From assembly GCA_030647555.1 (NCBI GenBank), contig JAUSJG010000001.1:1-36019 (forward strand): a stretch of DNA of 36,019 nucleotides. The letters run 5' to 3'. The notes under the pieces are model-generated. The model did not search any database and was not told the DNA's origin. It was given only the letters and a program-made list of their open reading frames with translations. A program made the position numbers and the translations under genes. Shown here one piece after another: positions 12,818 through 25,563 of the stretch; the first letter of the stretch is position 1, and each line of letters opens with the position of its first letter. The stretch is from a bacterium (lineage in GTDB: Bacteria; Patescibacteriota; Andersenbacteria; UBA10190; CAIZMI01).

Positions 12818-12900
12818 GGGTCGGACTGCCAAGCGGTCCGACCCGCATTGGTAGTGGCGTGCGTCCAATTAAGGTCGGACCGCTTGGCAGTCCGACCTTA
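12818..12900. repeat. BIME-like composite palindrome
   Basis: Two hairpins in opposite orientation: the 25-mer at 12819-12843 (ggtcggactgcc...) and its exact reverse complement at 12873-12897. The linker between them is itself bounded by attgg and ccaat. The whole can fold as two small hairpins or one large one. The same plan occurs at 22590-22677. It lies between the 5' side of the metallophosphoesterase gene and the 3' end of ftsH. Confidence 0.8.
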
Positions 12901-12926: not shown

Positions 12927-14879
12927 TTACGCTCCGGCTGGGACGATTTTTGGTTCGTGGGTGGATGGGACTTCCATGACGGGGGTTGTTGTGGTCGGCG
13001 TGACTGATGTATCAGGTGTTTGCGGTTTCGGCGTTTCACCCATCAATGCCCAAAACTCGTCTTGTTCGATTGTTTCTTTTTCGATCAAAACCTTGGCAAT
13101 TAATTGCCATTTATCTTTGTGTTTGGCGATAATATCCATTGCTTCTTTGCGGGCAGTATCCAATAAATGAATAATTGCTTTGTCGATTTGGAAGGCGGTT
13201 TCTTCGGAATAATTACGTTTGGCGCTAAAATCGCGACCCAAGAAAACGTATTCTTCGTGTTCACCGTATGTGGCGGGTCCCATATCGCTCATACCGTATT
13301 CGGTGACGATTGAACGAGCCAATTCGGTGGCACGTTTTAAGTCATTCGAGGCACCGGTGGTAAGCTCGCCAAATTGTGTTAATTCCGCGGTGTAGCCACC
13401 AAGCAGGGTGGCGAGTTCGCCTAAGAACTCCGGTTTGCTGTGCAAACGGCGTTCTGTTTCCGGAAGTTTTAATGTGTAACCACCGGCGCGACCGCGGGAA
13501 ACAATGGAAATTTTTCGTACGGGATCGACGTGCGGTAAGACGTGCGCGATAATGGCGTGACCGGCTTCGTGATAAGCGGCAATTTCTTTTTCTTTAGTGC
13601 TTAACATATGGCTCTTGCGTTCCGGGCCAAGCATTACTTTTTCAATCGAATCTAAAAGTTCCGTCATTTCAATTTTTTTCTTTTCACGACGAACCGTAAG
13701 AATGGCTGCTTCGTTGGTTAGATTCGCTAAGTCAGCACCGGAAAAACCGGGGGTGCGTTCCGCGACACGGCGTAGCGAAATTTCTTTCACCATTGGCTTG
13801 CCTTCGGAATGTACTTGCAAAATAGCTTCGCGTTCATCAATATCCGGTAAATCTAGTGTGACGTGACGATCAAAACGTCCCGGGCGAAGCAGAGCCGGGT
13901 CTAAAACATCCGGACGATTGGTGGCGGCGATGACAATGACACCTTCATCGGTGGCAAAGCCGTCCATTTCCACCAAAATTTGATTGAGGGTTTGTTCACG
14001 TTCGTCGTGTCCACCACCCATGCCTGTGCCACGGTGGCGACCGACCGCGTCAAGTTCATCAACGAAAACAATCGCCGGGGCGTTTTCTTTCGCTTTTTGG
14101 AATAAATCTCGCACGCGACTGGCACCGACACCGACGAACATTTCCACGAATTCCGAACCGGACATATGAAAGAACGGCACGTCCGCTTCACCGGCCACCG
14201 CTTTGGCTAACAATGTTTTACCTGTTCCCGGGGCGCCAAAAAGTAAGACACCCTTGGGAATACGCGCGCCCATAGCGGTAAACTTTTTTGGATTTTTCAA
14301 GAAGTCGACAACTTCCATTAATTCTTGTTTGGCTTCGTGCGCGCCGGCGACATCTTTAAATGTAACCTTCTTTTTTGGTGGTAAACCACCGGCTGGTTTG
14401 TCTTTGATTTGACCAAATGAAATAGCGCGAGAATTGGCGGACTGCGCGGAACGGATCATGAAGAACATAAAACCGCCCAATAATAGGAAGGGGAGTAAAG
14501 CGGGCAGAAGATTGGCCGTCCAGAAACCAACGCCCGATGGTTGTTTAACGGCAATTTCAACGCTACGAAGTTTTTCTGTGTTAACACCGAAGTTTTTCAA
14601 CGAATCGGTAAGGGAAGCATCCGCTTCTTTGTTGGCAGTTTCTTTTTTACCGTCGGTTTTTTCAACTTGAATGGTATTTTGTTCGACGCTGATTTTCTTC
14701 ACTTGGCCGGCATTTACTTCCGTGGCTACTTGCGAAAGTGGAACGGTTGGAATTTTTTCTGCCGGAGCGCCAAACACGGAGAAAACGGTAATTAAAATGG
14801 CTAATACTAGTAAACTGGCCCCGATATTCTTTGCGTTTAATTGGGGCGTCTTTGGTTTGGAAAATTTAATTTTTGGCAT
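12927..14879 (-). CDS. ftsH: ATP-dependent zinc metalloprotease FtsH
   Basis: A membrane-bound AAA+ protease that degrades misfolded membrane and regulatory proteins. The 650 residues hold TM1 (about 20-37), an external domain, TM2 (about 122-142), an AAA module with Walker A GAPGTGKT (215-222), Walker B VFVDELD (271-277; DEID is more usual), the second region of homology [20 protein letters not shown] (319-338), and the protease motif HEAGH (437-441). The tail is Pro/Thr-rich. The start at 14879 (MPKIKFSK) is chosen because an extended -10, TGATATACT, ends four bases upstream, so the mRNA appears leaderless. The upstream in-frame ATG at 14933 would lie before the promoter. Confidence 0.96.
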
Positions 14880-14902
14880 ACCCAGTATATCAACTGCCAA
14901 TT
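14877..14902 (-). promoter_or_regulatory. Leaderless ftsH promoter, shared 28-bp block
   Basis: On the minus strand: aattggcagttg, then the extended -10 TGATATACT, gggt and the ATG. The gyrA start at 22881-22906 has the same sequence with one difference (c/a at position 7). Only four bases separate the -10 from the start codon. No -35 is visible. Confidence 0.75.
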
Positions 14903-14923
14903 TGAACGAACTTTGTTCGTTCA
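14903..14923. promoter_or_regulatory. Perfect hairpin adjoining the ftsH promoter block
   Basis: The stem tgaacgaac / gttcgttca (9 bp) with a 3-base loop abuts the shared block. gyrA has an equivalent 8-bp stem with a 3-base loop in the same place (22861-22879), with unrelated stem sequence. It occupies the position where a -35 region or activator site would be expected. Confidence 0.6.
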
Positions 14924-14996
14924 AAAATGACAAGTATTAAGGGTGAAGTTTGGCTTAAGATAGTCATGAAATGTGATTGAAAATAATGTATTAATA

Positions 14997-15023
14997 AATT
15001 GGCAGTTGTATTGCTGGGATATG
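14997..15023 (+). repeat. Inverted copy of the ftsH/gyrA block
   Basis: aattggcagttg followed by tattgctggg and atatg. It faces away from ftsH, 94 bp from the direct copy. It keeps the c at position 7 that distinguishes the ftsH copy from the gyrA copy. No gene follows on the plus strand. Confidence 0.7.
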
Positions 15024-15073: not shown

Positions 15074-15236
15074 ATGAAAATTTTCAATTATCAATGACCA
15101 ATCATCAATGAATGTTCAAACTCCAAATATCAAACAACGACGCCGTTTTGATAATTAAGCCATTGCCTGCCAACCGAAGCTTTAGCGAAGGTTGGATAAT
15201 TAATTGAAAATTGGGAATTGATCATTGAAAATTAAT
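15074..15236. repeat. AT-rich MITE-like inverted repeat, copy 1
   Basis: The left arm (aattatcaatgaccaatcat...) and the right arm (...aattgatcattgaaaatta) are imperfect inverted repeats around a core with acgacgccgtttt. Inside is the hairpin ccaaccgaag / cgaaggttgg (about 15168-15193). Two relatives lie at 19963-20103 and 25371-25507. No open frame is present. Confidence 0.7.
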
Positions 15237-15250
15237 AAACTCACGCTTAT

Positions 15251-15283
15251 ATCAAAAACCCCGCGGTTGCGGGGGTTTTTGAT
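15251..15283 (-). terminator. Terminator of rpsA
   Basis: A stem of accccgc / gcggggt type flanked by A and T runs on both sides; on the minus strand it ends in five Ts. It lies 14 bases past the rpsA stop and could also act on the plus strand. Confidence 0.88.
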
Positions 15284-19962: not shown

Positions 19963-20103
19963 CCAAAATTATCAATTTTCAATGACCAATTTTCAATAAA
20001 TTATCAATGACTAAATTATCAAACAATTTCAGCGCAATAATTGAAAATTCGAAAATTAAAAAATTAATTGAAAATTGGTCATTGAAAATTGATAATTAAT
20101 TAC
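19963..20103. repeat. AT-rich MITE-like inverted repeat, copy 2
   Basis: The left arm atcaattttcaatgaccaa and the right arm ttggtcattgaaaattgat are exact reverse complements. The core contains ttcagcgcaat. The right arm includes TTGAAA (20068-20073), a 17-bp spacer and GATAAT (20091-20096), eight bases before the ATG of the next gene, so the repeat probably carries its promoter. Confidence 0.75.
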
Positions 20104-20104
20104 A

Positions 20105-20506
20105 ATGTTTGAATATTTTTCTGAAATCAAAAATAGAGATGAATTTGCAAAGAAAAGATTTGTGATTGTTGGCACCGCTATCAGTTTCATCGCCATCATC
20201 GGTGTTTGGGTGCCGATTCGCATCGCGCAATGGAGAACTCCGGGTGACGCAACCGTCGCCAAAACAGAAGAAACCGCACCGCTTACAACAGCGACGCCGG
20301 CCGTAGCGGGGGATTCGGCGATTCGCATTTTTACCAACGTGGCTTCGCCAAAACCGACCGTTGCGCCCGTTTTCATAACCCAGCCGGAGGCACCTTTGTT
20401 TGCCCAGCCCGTTGTGTCAGTAACACCAACATCAGTGCCAACAGCAACTGCGGAAGCGTTGTTTGAAACAGAAGCCCCAACCCCCACCGATTTCCCGACG
20501 CTGTAA
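20105..20506 (+). CDS. Single-TM protein with Pro/Thr/Ala-rich tail
   Basis: A 133-residue protein. Residues 1-18 are charged and cytoplasmic, 19-38 form one membrane helix (FVIVGTAISFIAIIGVWVPI), and the rest is a low-complexity stretch rich in Pro, Thr, Ala and Val (TVAPVFITQPEAPLF, TPTSVPTATAEA). The tail is likely extended outside the membrane or along the wall. No family is recognised. The short 5' spacing (eight bases from a -10 box inside the repeat) fixes the start at 20105. Confidence 0.65.
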   Translation: MFEYFSEIKNRDEFAKKRFVIVGTAISFIAIIGVWVPIRIAQWRTPGDATVAKTEETAPLTTATPAVAGDSAIRIFTNVASPKPTVAPVFITQPEAPLFAQPVVSVTPTSVPTATAEALFETEAPTPTDFPTL

Positions 20507-22605: not shown

Positions 22606-22677
22606 GGGGTCCGTCCCTCATTGGCCGATGACGTGACGCGACCAATGAAGGTCGGACCGCTCGGCAGTCCGACCTTA
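22590..22677. repeat. BIME-like composite palindrome, second copy
   Basis: Hairpin 1 (gggacggactcc / ggggtccgtccc), a linker bounded by attgg and ccaat, and hairpin 2 (aaggtcggaccg...cagtccgacctt). The plan and linker ends match 12818-12900, although the hairpin sequences have diverged. The repeat includes the stop codon of the preceding gene. Confidence 0.75.
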
Positions 22678-22760: not shown

Positions 22761-22787
22761 ATATGCCCAGTAATACAACTTCCAATT
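22761..22787 (-). repeat. Inverted copy of the ftsH/gyrA block
   Basis: On the minus strand: aattggaagttg, then tattactggg and catat. It faces away from gyrA, 93 bp from the direct copy, and carries the a at position 7 that is specific to the gyrA locus. No minus-strand gene follows. Confidence 0.7.
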
Positions 22788-22860
22788 TTTTCAAAATAAA
22801 GTGACAATAAATTTTATGTATGGTTTTTATGAATACAAGACTTTTAACTTTAATCCTTTA

Positions 22861-22879
22861 TTGGCGATGAAATCGCCAA
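22861..22879. promoter_or_regulatory. Perfect hairpin adjoining the gyrA promoter block
   Basis: The stem ttggcgat / atcgccaa (8 bp) with loop gaa, one base from the shared block. ftsH has an equivalent hairpin at 14903-14923 with a different stem sequence. Confidence 0.6.
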
Positions 22880-22880
22880 T

Positions 22881-22906
22881 AATTGGAAGTTGATATACTG
22901 GGTATG
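22881..22906 (+). promoter_or_regulatory. Leaderless gyrA promoter, shared 28-bp block
   Basis: aattggaagttg, the extended -10 TGATATACT, gggt and ATG at 22904. The match to the ftsH start continues through the first two bases of the second codon. Confidence 0.75.
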
Positions 22907-25366
22907 CCCGAAACAATCACCCCACGTGAAATAAGCGAAGAAATGCAACAATCCTACCTCGATTACGCGATGAGCGTGATCGTGGCTAGGGCCTTGCCGG
23001 ATGTTCGTGATGGCTTTAAGCCGGTGCATCGCAAGATTTTGTACGCCATGAATGAAATGGGCTTACGTGCCAATTCGCGTTTTAGAAAATCCGCCACGGT
23101 GGTTGGTGAAGTGCTTGGCAAATACCATCCGCACGGCGATATCGCGGTGTACGATACGATGGCGCGCATGACGCAGGAATGGTCAATGCGTTATCAGTTA
23201 ATCAATGGACAGGGAAACTTTGGTTCCATCGACGGTGACTCACCGGCCGCCATGCGTTACACGGAAGCCAAGCTTGCCAAAATTTCCGAAGAAATGTTGC
23301 GGGATATCGATAAAGAAACAGTTTTGTTTGTTGACAACTATGACAGCACGCGTAAAGAACCGTCAGTAATGCCGGCGGCATTTCCTAATTTGTTGGTGAA
23401 CGGTACGGTGGGTATCGCGGTTGGGATGGCCACCAATATTCCACCGCACAATTTATCGGAAGTAATTGATGCGATTGTTCATCTTTCTGAAAATCCGGAT
23501 GCCAATGTGGAAGATTTGCTTCAGTTTGTAAAAGGCCCTGATTTTCCAACCGGCGGTTTCATCTTTAATAAGCAAGATATCGCGCACGCTTACGCCACGG
23601 GGAAGGGTGGCATGGTTACGCGCGCCAAGGCGGAAATTGAAGAAGTAAAAGAAGGTGAGTTCAAAATTATCGTGACGGAAATTCCTTATCAGGTGAATAA
23701 GTCCACACTTTTGGAAGAAATTGCCAATGGCGTGAAGGAAAAGCGTTTGGACGGTATTAAAGATTTGCGTGATGAATCGGACAAAGACGGTATTCGCGTT
23801 GTGATTGAGTTAAAGCGTGACGCGTATCCGAAAAAGGTTTTGAACCAGCTTTTTGTGCATACGCAACTGCAAAAGTCATTCCATTTAAATATGTTGGCGT
23901 TGGTAGACGGGATTCAACCGAAAGTGTTGACGCTCAAAGCCGTTTTGGAATGTTTCTTAGATCATCGCAAGGTGGTTATTCGCAAACGGAGTGAATATGA
24001 ACTGCGTAAGGCGAAAGACCGCGCCCATATTTTGGAAGGCTTAACGAAGGCGCTTGATCATATCAATGAAGTAATCGAAACAATTAAGAAATCGGCCACC
24101 AAAGAAATTGCGCACGCCAATTTGGTGAAGAAATTCCGTCTGTCCGAATTGCAAGCCGCGGCCATTCTGGAAATGCGTTTGTCTACGCTTGCCGGTCTTG
24201 AACGTAAGAAAATTGAAGACGAATTGGCGGAGAAGCGCCGGCTTATTGCCAGCTTGGAAGATTTACTCAAGTCCCCGAAGAAAATTTTGGGTATCGTTAT
24301 TTCAGAATTACTAGAAATTAAAAAGAATTTTGGCGACGAACGGCGTACAAAAGTGGTGGCCGGTCCGGTTGGTGAATTCTCGACGGAAGATTTGGTGCCG
24401 GACGAAGACACCGTGCTGACAGTTACCGCCGGTGGTTACGTGAAGAGACTACCGATTGATACCTATAAAGTGCAGGGCAGGGGTGGTAAGGGTGTGATTG
24501 GAATGACTACTAAAGAAGAAGATTCTGTTGAACAAATTATTGTTACTCGCACGCATTCCGACGCGTTGTTCTTCACTAATTCCGGAAAAGTATTTGCCAG
24601 CAAAGTACATGAGTTACCGCCGTCTTCTCGCACGGCCAAGGGGCAAGCGCTACAAAATTTCTTGTCTTTGAAATCGGAAGAAAAGGTGACGGCAGTACTC
24701 GCGCTTCCCAAAGACACAAAAGCAAAGTTTCTTGTTATGGTTACTGCTTCCGGAACAATCAAAAAGGTGGCAATTGAAGAATTCGAGCATGTACGTCGTA
24801 GTGGCCTTATCGCGATTCGACTCGAACCCGGTGATCATTTGGATTGGGTTTTTCCAAGCAATGGTAAGGATGAAATTATGGTTGTTACCGCCAAGGGCAA
24901 GGGAATTCGTTTTAAGGAAACGGATGTGCGCCCGATGGGTCGGCCGGCGGCCGGAGTACGCGGTATTAAAATGAGTAAAGACGACACTCTGATTGGAATG
25001 ACGGTAATTCCGCAAGAATTAAAAGCCAAAGACGCGCACGTTTTGGTTTTGATGGAACACGGCTATGGCAAACGCGCCAGCCTTACGGCATTTAAGGTGC
25101 AACACCGAGGCGGTTCGGGAATTAAAACAGCCAATGTAACGCCAAAAACCGGTAAAGTCGTGGGAATGAAACTGATTCCGGCTTCCGAAAAAGAAGCGTC
25201 GGTGATTGTTACCTCCGCTAAAGGTCAAGTGATTCGCGTGCCGATTGCTTCCGTGCCTATCTTAGGTCGTGCCACGCAAGGTGTGCGTATTATGCGCCTA
25301 GATGGCGATGAAAAAGTGGCGACGTTTACGACGTTTGTAACAGTGGAACGGTTGACGACGGAGTAG
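22904..25366 (+). CDS. gyrA: DNA gyrase subunit A
   Basis: The breakage-reunion subunit of gyrase, which introduces negative supercoils. The 820 residues begin MPETITPREISEEM. The catalytic tyrosine is Y119 in AAMRYTEAKL. The C-terminal beta-pinwheel has the GyrA box as QGRGGKG (524-530; the classical form is QRRGGKG), which separates it from ParC. The quinolone-resistance region reads HPHGDIAVYDTMARM: the position equal to E. coli Ser83 is Ile80, while the Asp87 equivalent is kept (D84). The start at 22904 is fixed by the extended -10 four bases upstream, so the mRNA is leaderless. gyrB is not adjacent. Confidence 0.95.
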   Translation: MPETITPREISEEMQQSYLDYAMSVIVARALPDVRDGFKPVHRKILYAMNEMGLRANSRFRKSATVVGEVLGKYHPHGDIAVYDTMARMTQEWSMRYQLINGQGNFGSIDGDSPAAMRYTEAKLAKISEEMLRDIDKETVLFVDNYDSTRKEPSVMPAAFPNLLVNGTVGIAVGMATNIPPHNLSEVIDAIVHLSENPDANVEDLLQFVKGPDFPTGGFIFNKQDIAHAYATGKGGMVTRAKAEIEEVKEGEFKIIVTEIPYQVNKSTLLEEIANGVKEKRLDGIKDLRDESDKDGIRVVIELKRDAYPKKVLNQLFVHTQLQKSFHLNMLALVDGIQPKVLTLKAVLECFLDHRKVVIRKRSEYELRKAKDRAHILEGLTKALDHINEVIETIKKSATKEIAHANLVKKFRLSELQAAAILEMRLSTLAGLERKKIEDELAEKRRLIASLEDLLKSPKKILGIVISELLEIKKNFGDERRTKVVAGPVGEFSTEDLVPDEDTVLTVTAGGYVKRLPIDTYKVQGRGGKGVIGMTTKEEDSVEQIIVTRTHSDALFFTNSGKVFASKVHELPPSSRTAKGQALQNFLSLKSEEKVTAVLALPKDTKAKFLVMVTASGTIKKVAIEEFEHVRRSGLIAIRLEPGDHLDWVFPSNGKDEIMVVTAKGKGIRFKETDVRPMGRPAAGVRGIKMSKDDTLIGMTVIPQELKAKDAHVLVLMEHGYGKRASLTAFKVQHRGGSGIKTANVTPKTGKVVGMKLIPASEKEASVIVTSAKGQVIRVPIASVPILGRATQGVRIMRLDGDEKVATFTTFVTVERLTTE

Positions 25367-25370
25367 AAGA

Positions 25371-25507
25371 AAATTTTCAATTATCAATTCCCAATTTTCA
25401 ATTAATTGTCAATGGATTAATTATTAATTACTGCGTCGTTTTAAAATTGATAATTTAAGAATTGAACATTAATTGATAATTGGTTATTGAAAATTGATAA
25501 TTAATTA
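25371..25507. repeat. AT-rich MITE-like inverted repeat, copy 3
   Basis: The left arm (ttttcaattatcaattcccaa) and the right arm (ttggttattgaaaattgat) are imperfect inverted repeats around a core with actgcgtcgtttta. It starts five bases after the gyrA stop codon and may also end its transcript. Confidence 0.7.
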
Positions 25508-25563
25508 AGCTTCTTGGTTGTTTTCGTGCTATAGTTATCAATAGATAAAAATACACAAATCCC

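Follow-up and report, generated by a model that had tools for sequence, protein, structure and literature searches.

Bacterial MITEs are known to derive from elements that encode a transposase, in most cases of the DDE class. Small selfish elements that carry a GIY-YIG nuclease are of other kinds, e.g. the free-standing T4 Seg-type homing endonucleases and the I-TevI-type intron endonucleases. Moreover, rRNA genes of CPR bacteria are reported to have both GIY-YIG-encoding insertions that are not introns and short insertions without an ORF, all of unknown type (PMC11270868). We report that the structures preceding ftsH and gyrA in a patescibacterial genome are copies of a MITE-like non-autonomous mobile element, and it is highly probable that the parent of these copies is an element of ~310 bp with terminal inverted repeats (TIRs) and a solo GIY-YIG nuclease gene. 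The two copies lie in the window, i.e. the whole stretch of DNA that was analysed (36,019 nucleotides), where the features are as follows.

12927..14879, minus strand: ftsH CDS, the host gene hit by the insertion (TIGR01241, E 1e-235)
14878..14880, minus strand: ftsH target duplication TAT, gene-side copy; the next G completes the ATG at 14877-14879
14881..15018, minus strand: non-autonomous element of 138 bp at the ftsH start codon (TIR pair, hairpin, empty site in the sister species G001)
14881..14900, minus strand: right TIR of the ftsH element, TTGGCAGTTGATATACTGGG, which holds the extended -10-like TGATATACT
14890..14967, minus strand: remnant ORF in the ftsH element, MTILSQTSPLILVIFERTKFVQIGS followed by a stop, in the frame of the end of the parental GIY-YIG ORF
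14901..14925, minus strand: perfect 11-bp hairpin TTTGAACGAAC AAA GTTCGTTCAAA, abutting the right TIR of the ftsH element
14999..15018, plus strand: left TIR of the ftsH element, the inverted copy, TTGGCAGTTGTATTGCTGGG on the plus strand
15019..15021, minus strand: ftsH target duplication TAT, distal copy
22762..22765, plus strand: gyrA target duplication TATG, distal copy
22766..22902, plus strand: non-autonomous element of 137 bp at the gyrA start codon
22766..22785, minus strand: left TIR of the gyrA element (TTGGAAGTTGTATTACTGGG on the minus strand)
22858..22882, plus strand: perfect 11-bp hairpin TTATTGGCGAT GAA ATCGCCAATAA, abutting the right TIR of the gyrA element
22883..22902, plus strand: right TIR of the gyrA element, TTGGAAGTTGATATACTGGG
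22903..22906, plus strand: gyrA target duplication TATG, gene-side copy; the ATG within it is the gyrA start codon
22904..25366, plus strand: gyrA CDS, the host gene hit by the insertion (TIGR01063/NF004043, E 0)

A first-pass annotation of this DNA had described a 28-bp block shared by the two genes, together with a hairpin and an inverted partner at each locus. The blocks (14875-14902, minus strand, and 22881-22908, plus strand) indeed differ at a single base, their inverted partners (14997-15023 and 22761-22787) lie at distances of 94 and 93 bp, and the variable base, c at ftsH and a at gyrA, is common to both arms within each locus. The block is a genuine repeat, but it is made up of a 20-bp TIR and, next to it, the (T)ATGCC that belongs to the host gene. 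The hairpins have the 3-nt loop that had been noted and abut the block without a gap, but their stems are perfect over 11 bp and not 8-9 bp. In the window's genome the hairpin beside the right TIR is strong, and elsewhere it is present in only 40 of 133 copies. At ftsH the TGA stop of the remnant ORF sits within the right TIR.

Other repeats are also present in the window. A 40-bp hairpin repeat, AAGGTCGGACCGCTtGGCAGTCCGACCTTA, is found at 12861-12900 and 22638-22677 (93% identical), the first copy past the end of ftsH and the second ahead of the gyrA element, and these copies are possibly terminators. Three AT-rich inverted-repeat copies (AATTGATAATTG.../...CAATTATCAATT) at 15077-15255, 19965-20119 and 25370-25524 possibly represent a second MITE-like family, a 30-bp piece of which is also present in G001.

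The window's genome (G000; 1.32 Mb, 96.8% complete) was subjected to pattern searches, on which all genome-wide counts are based, and the element follows the consensus CCCnGTA-ATA-CAACnnnnnn ... nnnnnnGTTG-ATA-TACnGGG with 20-bp TIRs. The TIR pattern gave 63 matches in this genome compared with 4 for a reversed control pattern, and the paired TIR copies are far beyond chance. The search for the shared block was extended to related genomes; it gave ~30 paired copies in the 1.32 Mb (29 extracted and one more at C4:95485), with an arm spacing of 115-124 bp and an element length of 135-144 bp, and related copies in other Patescibacteria. Downstream genes confirmed with NCBIfam are gyrA, ftsH, rpsE, rplE, rpsQ, rpmC, rpsK, rplM, tsf and rplF, and those judged by eye from their translations only are rpmJ, rpoA, rpmI, lepA, argS, glyS and others. 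For 20 of the 28 copies in the window's genome, an ORF of 50 codons or more starts with an ATG 0-2 nt past the right end. Start codons are favoured and the insertions have a single orientation, pointing at the gene, while some copies are positioned away from gene starts; the concentration at start codons reflects either a target preference or what selection leaves. In ribosomal-protein operons the elements are clustered, with six at G000:C28:8274-13466 and five at G000:C7:46877-51423, several of them at consecutive gene starts.

An exact 4-bp target duplication (TSD), mostly TATG or ATGA, was found in 73 of 90 distinct elements from other Patescibacteria, while shuffling of the right flanks gave a mean of 31 and a maximum of 42; since TATG is common, this shuffling is the fair test. 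There was no excess of duplications at 5 bp or longer, which sets the TSD size to 4 bp (sometimes 3 bp). A 4-bp TSD was present in 97 of 133 elements of a wider set, with TATG 66 times versus CATA once, and in the window's genome an exact 4-bp TSD was detected in just 11 of 28 copies, the rest being 3 bp or decayed. Tandem insertions have one common 4-bp spacer. The duplicated TATG or ATGA is the start codon of the downstream gene, in duplicate, and the element does not supply the start codon as the first-pass annotation had it: the ATG is the host's own, duplicated upon insertion.

In the sister species G001, the first 120 amino acids of GyrA are 99% identical to those in the window's genome. 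In G001 the sequences on either side of the rpmC, rplE, rplF and rpsE insertions adjoin each other, with an overlap of exactly 4 bp, as duplication predicts. The ftsH site is empty as well, with a flank overlap of 3 bp, and so is the rpsQ site, without a clean overlap; at gyrA the gene-side flank alone aligns, which makes this site less clear. Together, the TSDs and the empty sites argue for insertion at the DNA level.

Two readings had been put forward for the paired repeats. One is that they constitute a dual operator, or looping control, common to ftsH and gyrA, and the position of paired sites at a constant distance ahead of two genes would suit it. We find this extremely improbable, since ~30 copies precede unrelated genes and some occupy non-gene sites, tandem copies and insertion-type duplications occur, and G001 has the same genes without the element; its absence from several orthologous loci in so close a relative is contrary to a conserved operator. 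The other reading, a small mobile element, is borne out by the many copies, the 4-bp target duplications, the empty sites in the sister species and full-length relatives that encode a nuclease (see below).

The arms of the element show an unusual pattern of conservation. TIR positions 1-3 (CCC), 5-7 (GTA) and 11-14 (CAAC) hardly vary at all. The bases at position 4 and at positions 15-20 differ among elements, yet they are complementary between the arms in 126-134 of 135 distinct arm pairs (counts that ignore kinship among copies), compared to means of 42-78 and maxima of 59-92 when the arm pairing was shuffled. Positions 8-10 are always mismatched, ATA/ATA (A.A/T.T/A.A, 3x3), and the pairing ends abruptly at position 21. 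Several distinct compensated arm variants coexist in the window's genome. The first-pass annotation took the base shared within each of the two loci as a hint of gene conversion or of a partner that binds both sites. Gene conversion between ftsH and gyrA we reject, because the arms covary across the whole element family and this base is one of the seven covarying positions. The arm pairing is kept by non-coding copies as well and so seems to be something that the element needs in cis, and the covarying arms together with the invariant 3x3 mismatch suggest recognition as a folded stem. On these grounds we infer that the ends are recognised as folded or cruciform DNA; a protein recognising two identical ends is a possible alternative explanation for the pairing.

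The arms make a long stem, and the fold might instead act in RNA, as a structured leader or as an element removed from the transcript, such that the covariation would reflect RNA pairing. The insertions described in CPR rRNA genes, some encoding a GIY-YIG protein and others short and without an ORF, would fit such a role (PMC11270868). Several observations make it very unlikely: G-U pairs are rare (13 of ~945 variable-position cells), the TSDs and empty sites place the insertion in DNA, some copies are away from gene starts, and no Rfam family matched the element in the window and four other loci.

The first long form (L126) is 314 bp with the same TIRs and the TSD ATGA. With the L126 protein as query in 37 element-bearing genomes, long elements of ~309-320 bp having the same TIRs and a TSD were identified in about a dozen genomes. 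Their only ORF encodes a solo GIY-YIG nuclease (PF01541, E 1e-16), in which Y11, Y13, Y24, G26, R34, H38 and E70 are invariant in 8 sequences; the protein has a GIY-YIG domain (UPF0213-like) with the catalytic residues, and the nearest solved structure is 1zg2 (E 4e-9). An AlphaFold2 model of the single L126 sequence was of low confidence (pLDDT 53). The long form encodes no transposase of a known class (DDE, HUH, Y, S). In most long forms the reading frame opens at the ATG of the left duplication, continues across the TIR (giving M-PSNTT-) and closes at a TGA that lies within the right TIR. One genome (G075) has two long copies at unrelated sites; they match at 309/309 positions and each is flanked by a TATG duplication, which implies that the nuclease form itself moved recently.

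With respect to the origin of the small elements, those in G087 can be aligned with the resident nuclease element at both of its ends (L120/L138 versus L187), and in the window's genome 21 of 28 copies keep the interior ORF open in the frame of the parent, versus 3 and 0 for the other two frames. Given these end alignments and the frame bias, the small elements are best read as internal-deletion derivatives of the nuclease form, the parent being seen in another genome and not in the window's own. In WY3.bin166 the inner TIR bases of the small copies are not those of the resident nuclease element. The nuclease form is present in G010, a relative of the same order, while the four solo-type GIY-YIG genes of the window's genome all lack the TIR type of the elements; the mobiliser there is therefore missing from the assembly, lost, or another protein. 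One solo GIY-YIG gene in this genome (L182; G000:C27:7619-7816) is located between a partial and a complete copy of one tRNA gene, a layout as if it had inserted into the tRNA gene and duplicated part of it.

Other solo GIY-YIG genes are flanked by different TIR types (CCnGGTAGT, CCCGTTAGA, TTCACCC and CCCCCACAC), often also at start codons. Inverted repeats with a score of at least 12 surround solo GIY-YIG genes at 43 of 89 loci, compared with 2 of 267 in a null where flanks were reversed and re-paired. On a tree of 94 nucleases the TIR class changes 21 times versus 53.8 for shuffled labels (0 of 200 shuffles as low), and the window's TIR class falls within one supported clade (18 rows, 16 bearing that TIR); with an alignment of only 83 columns, the deep forks of the tree are not resolved. 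In L198 (reverse complement, about 1711-1790) another element's GIY-YIG gene contains a 62-bp micro-element (20-bp TIR, 22 bp, 20-bp TIR; TSD CAAG), and in a second genome a different element (L197, about 1711) occupies the same codon site (..KTTQ/GR..). In G002, which belongs to the same family, an unrelated small inverted repeat, CCCCGTTAG...CTAACGGGG|TATG, is situated before the gyrA start codon (L284), which suggests that the gyrA start codon was independently targeted by another TIR class.

The GIY-YIG gene could be a passenger on elements that a separate, unrelated transposase moves in trans. The ~30 copies in the window's genome, where no GIY-YIG gene of the matching TIR class was found, would be in keeping with this, as would the fact that the literature searched has no GIY-YIG transposase with TIRs and TSDs. 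Against it, the 310-bp form contains the GIY-YIG ORF alone with its frame running through the TIRs, the TIR class follows the nuclease phylogeny, several unrelated TIR families surround GIY-YIG genes, and among the loci read there is no longer element with the same TIRs. Hence, we judge a hitch-hiking nuclease unlikely, and infer from the sequence comparisons that the GIY-YIG protein mobilises the elements.

In the mechanism that we propose, the GIY-YIG protein would recognise the paired ends as folded DNA (hairpin or cruciform), cut the element ends and join them to a staggered break made in the target at (T)ATG. Through the resulting duplication the gene would regain its start codon, and the host would thereby survive the insertion. 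Transcription might then read through the element, with translation restarting at the gene; the parental ORF begins with the left ATG and ends in a TGA 13 nt ahead of the gene's ATG. Alternatively, where the sequence allows, the TGATATACT box of the right end may act as a near-leaderless promoter. The first-pass annotation had the element supply a promoter, which is plausible for the ftsH and gyrA copies, where a right-end promoter is possible. Across the family the final T of the -10 box coincides with the freely varying TIR position 4, so that the promoter is weak as a family trait. Promoter function as the cause of the conservation is weakened for the same reason, and it leaves the invariant ATA/ATA mismatch unexplained.

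The elements have a patchy distribution, being present in 11 of 380 patescibacterial genomes from several families, with 1 to 28 exact matches apiece. Among the matches listed in a GTDB scan, all were from Patescibacteria or from MAGs labelled just 'bacterium', and no copy of the short or the long form was detected in IMG/VR viral contigs. No GIY-YIG element with TIRs and TSDs was described in the literature searched, a search whose scope left out preprints and most subscription journals; as far as we found, a GIY-YIG nuclease driving such elements is apparently new, and an earlier description is possible. With moderate confidence, we lean towards regarding these patescibacterial transposable elements as a new superfamily, the complete transposition enzyme of which would be a solo GIY-YIG protein of ~100 amino acids; this protein would recognise the covarying ends as folded DNA, and its insertion of the element at the start codon would spare the gene.

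If the GIY-YIG protein is the mobilising enzyme, it would constitute a new class of transposition enzyme, and its elements, at about 270-320 bp, would be among the smallest autonomous DNA transposons and possibly the smallest known, while their MITEs would measure about 60-160 bp. It would also account for the several solo GIY-YIG genes that many patescibacterial genomes have, and perhaps for the insertions reported in patescibacterial rRNA genes, both those that encode a GIY-YIG protein and the short ones without an ORF. Moreover, a selfish element can settle at the start codons of essential genes (for ribosomal proteins, gyrase and FtsH) without destroying them, which bears on how gene starts are annotated, and on how genes are expressed, in a mostly uncultured phylum.

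Compared with known systems, the ftsH/gyrA family shares with the T4 Seg-type and I-TevI-type endonucleases a GIY-YIG nuclease in a small selfish element, but homing targets a cognate allele and involves neither TIRs nor 4-bp duplications, whereas this family has TIRs, TSDs, dispersed sites and MITEs. The dispersed sites and the 4-bp TSD do not fit a homing endonuclease gene or group I intron; with Rfam, the window and four other loci gave tRNAs only and no intron match. The CPR rRNA insertions have been reported only inside rRNA genes, and the available part of that report describes no TIR, TSD or element family for them (PMC11270868). Members of IS200/IS605 are also small, with ends recognised as folded single-stranded DNA (for the present family the fold is the predicted feature), but they have an HUH (Y1) transposase, no TIRs and no target duplication, and on each of these points the ftsH/gyrA family is unlike them; with TIRs and TSDs present and an HUH gene absent, membership of IS200/IS605 is rejected. 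Penelope-like retroelements likewise have a GIY-YIG endonuclease in a mobile element but, unlike the present family, they encode a reverse transcriptase, are eukaryotic and are kilobases long. Finally, the ftsH/gyrA elements resemble MITEs in being short, non-coding, bounded by two TIRs, flanked by a TSD, multicopy and related by internal deletion to a coding parent, which here comes from another genome. They differ from MITEs in that this parent encodes only a GIY-YIG nuclease, in the arms that vary and yet covary, and in their concentration at start codons.
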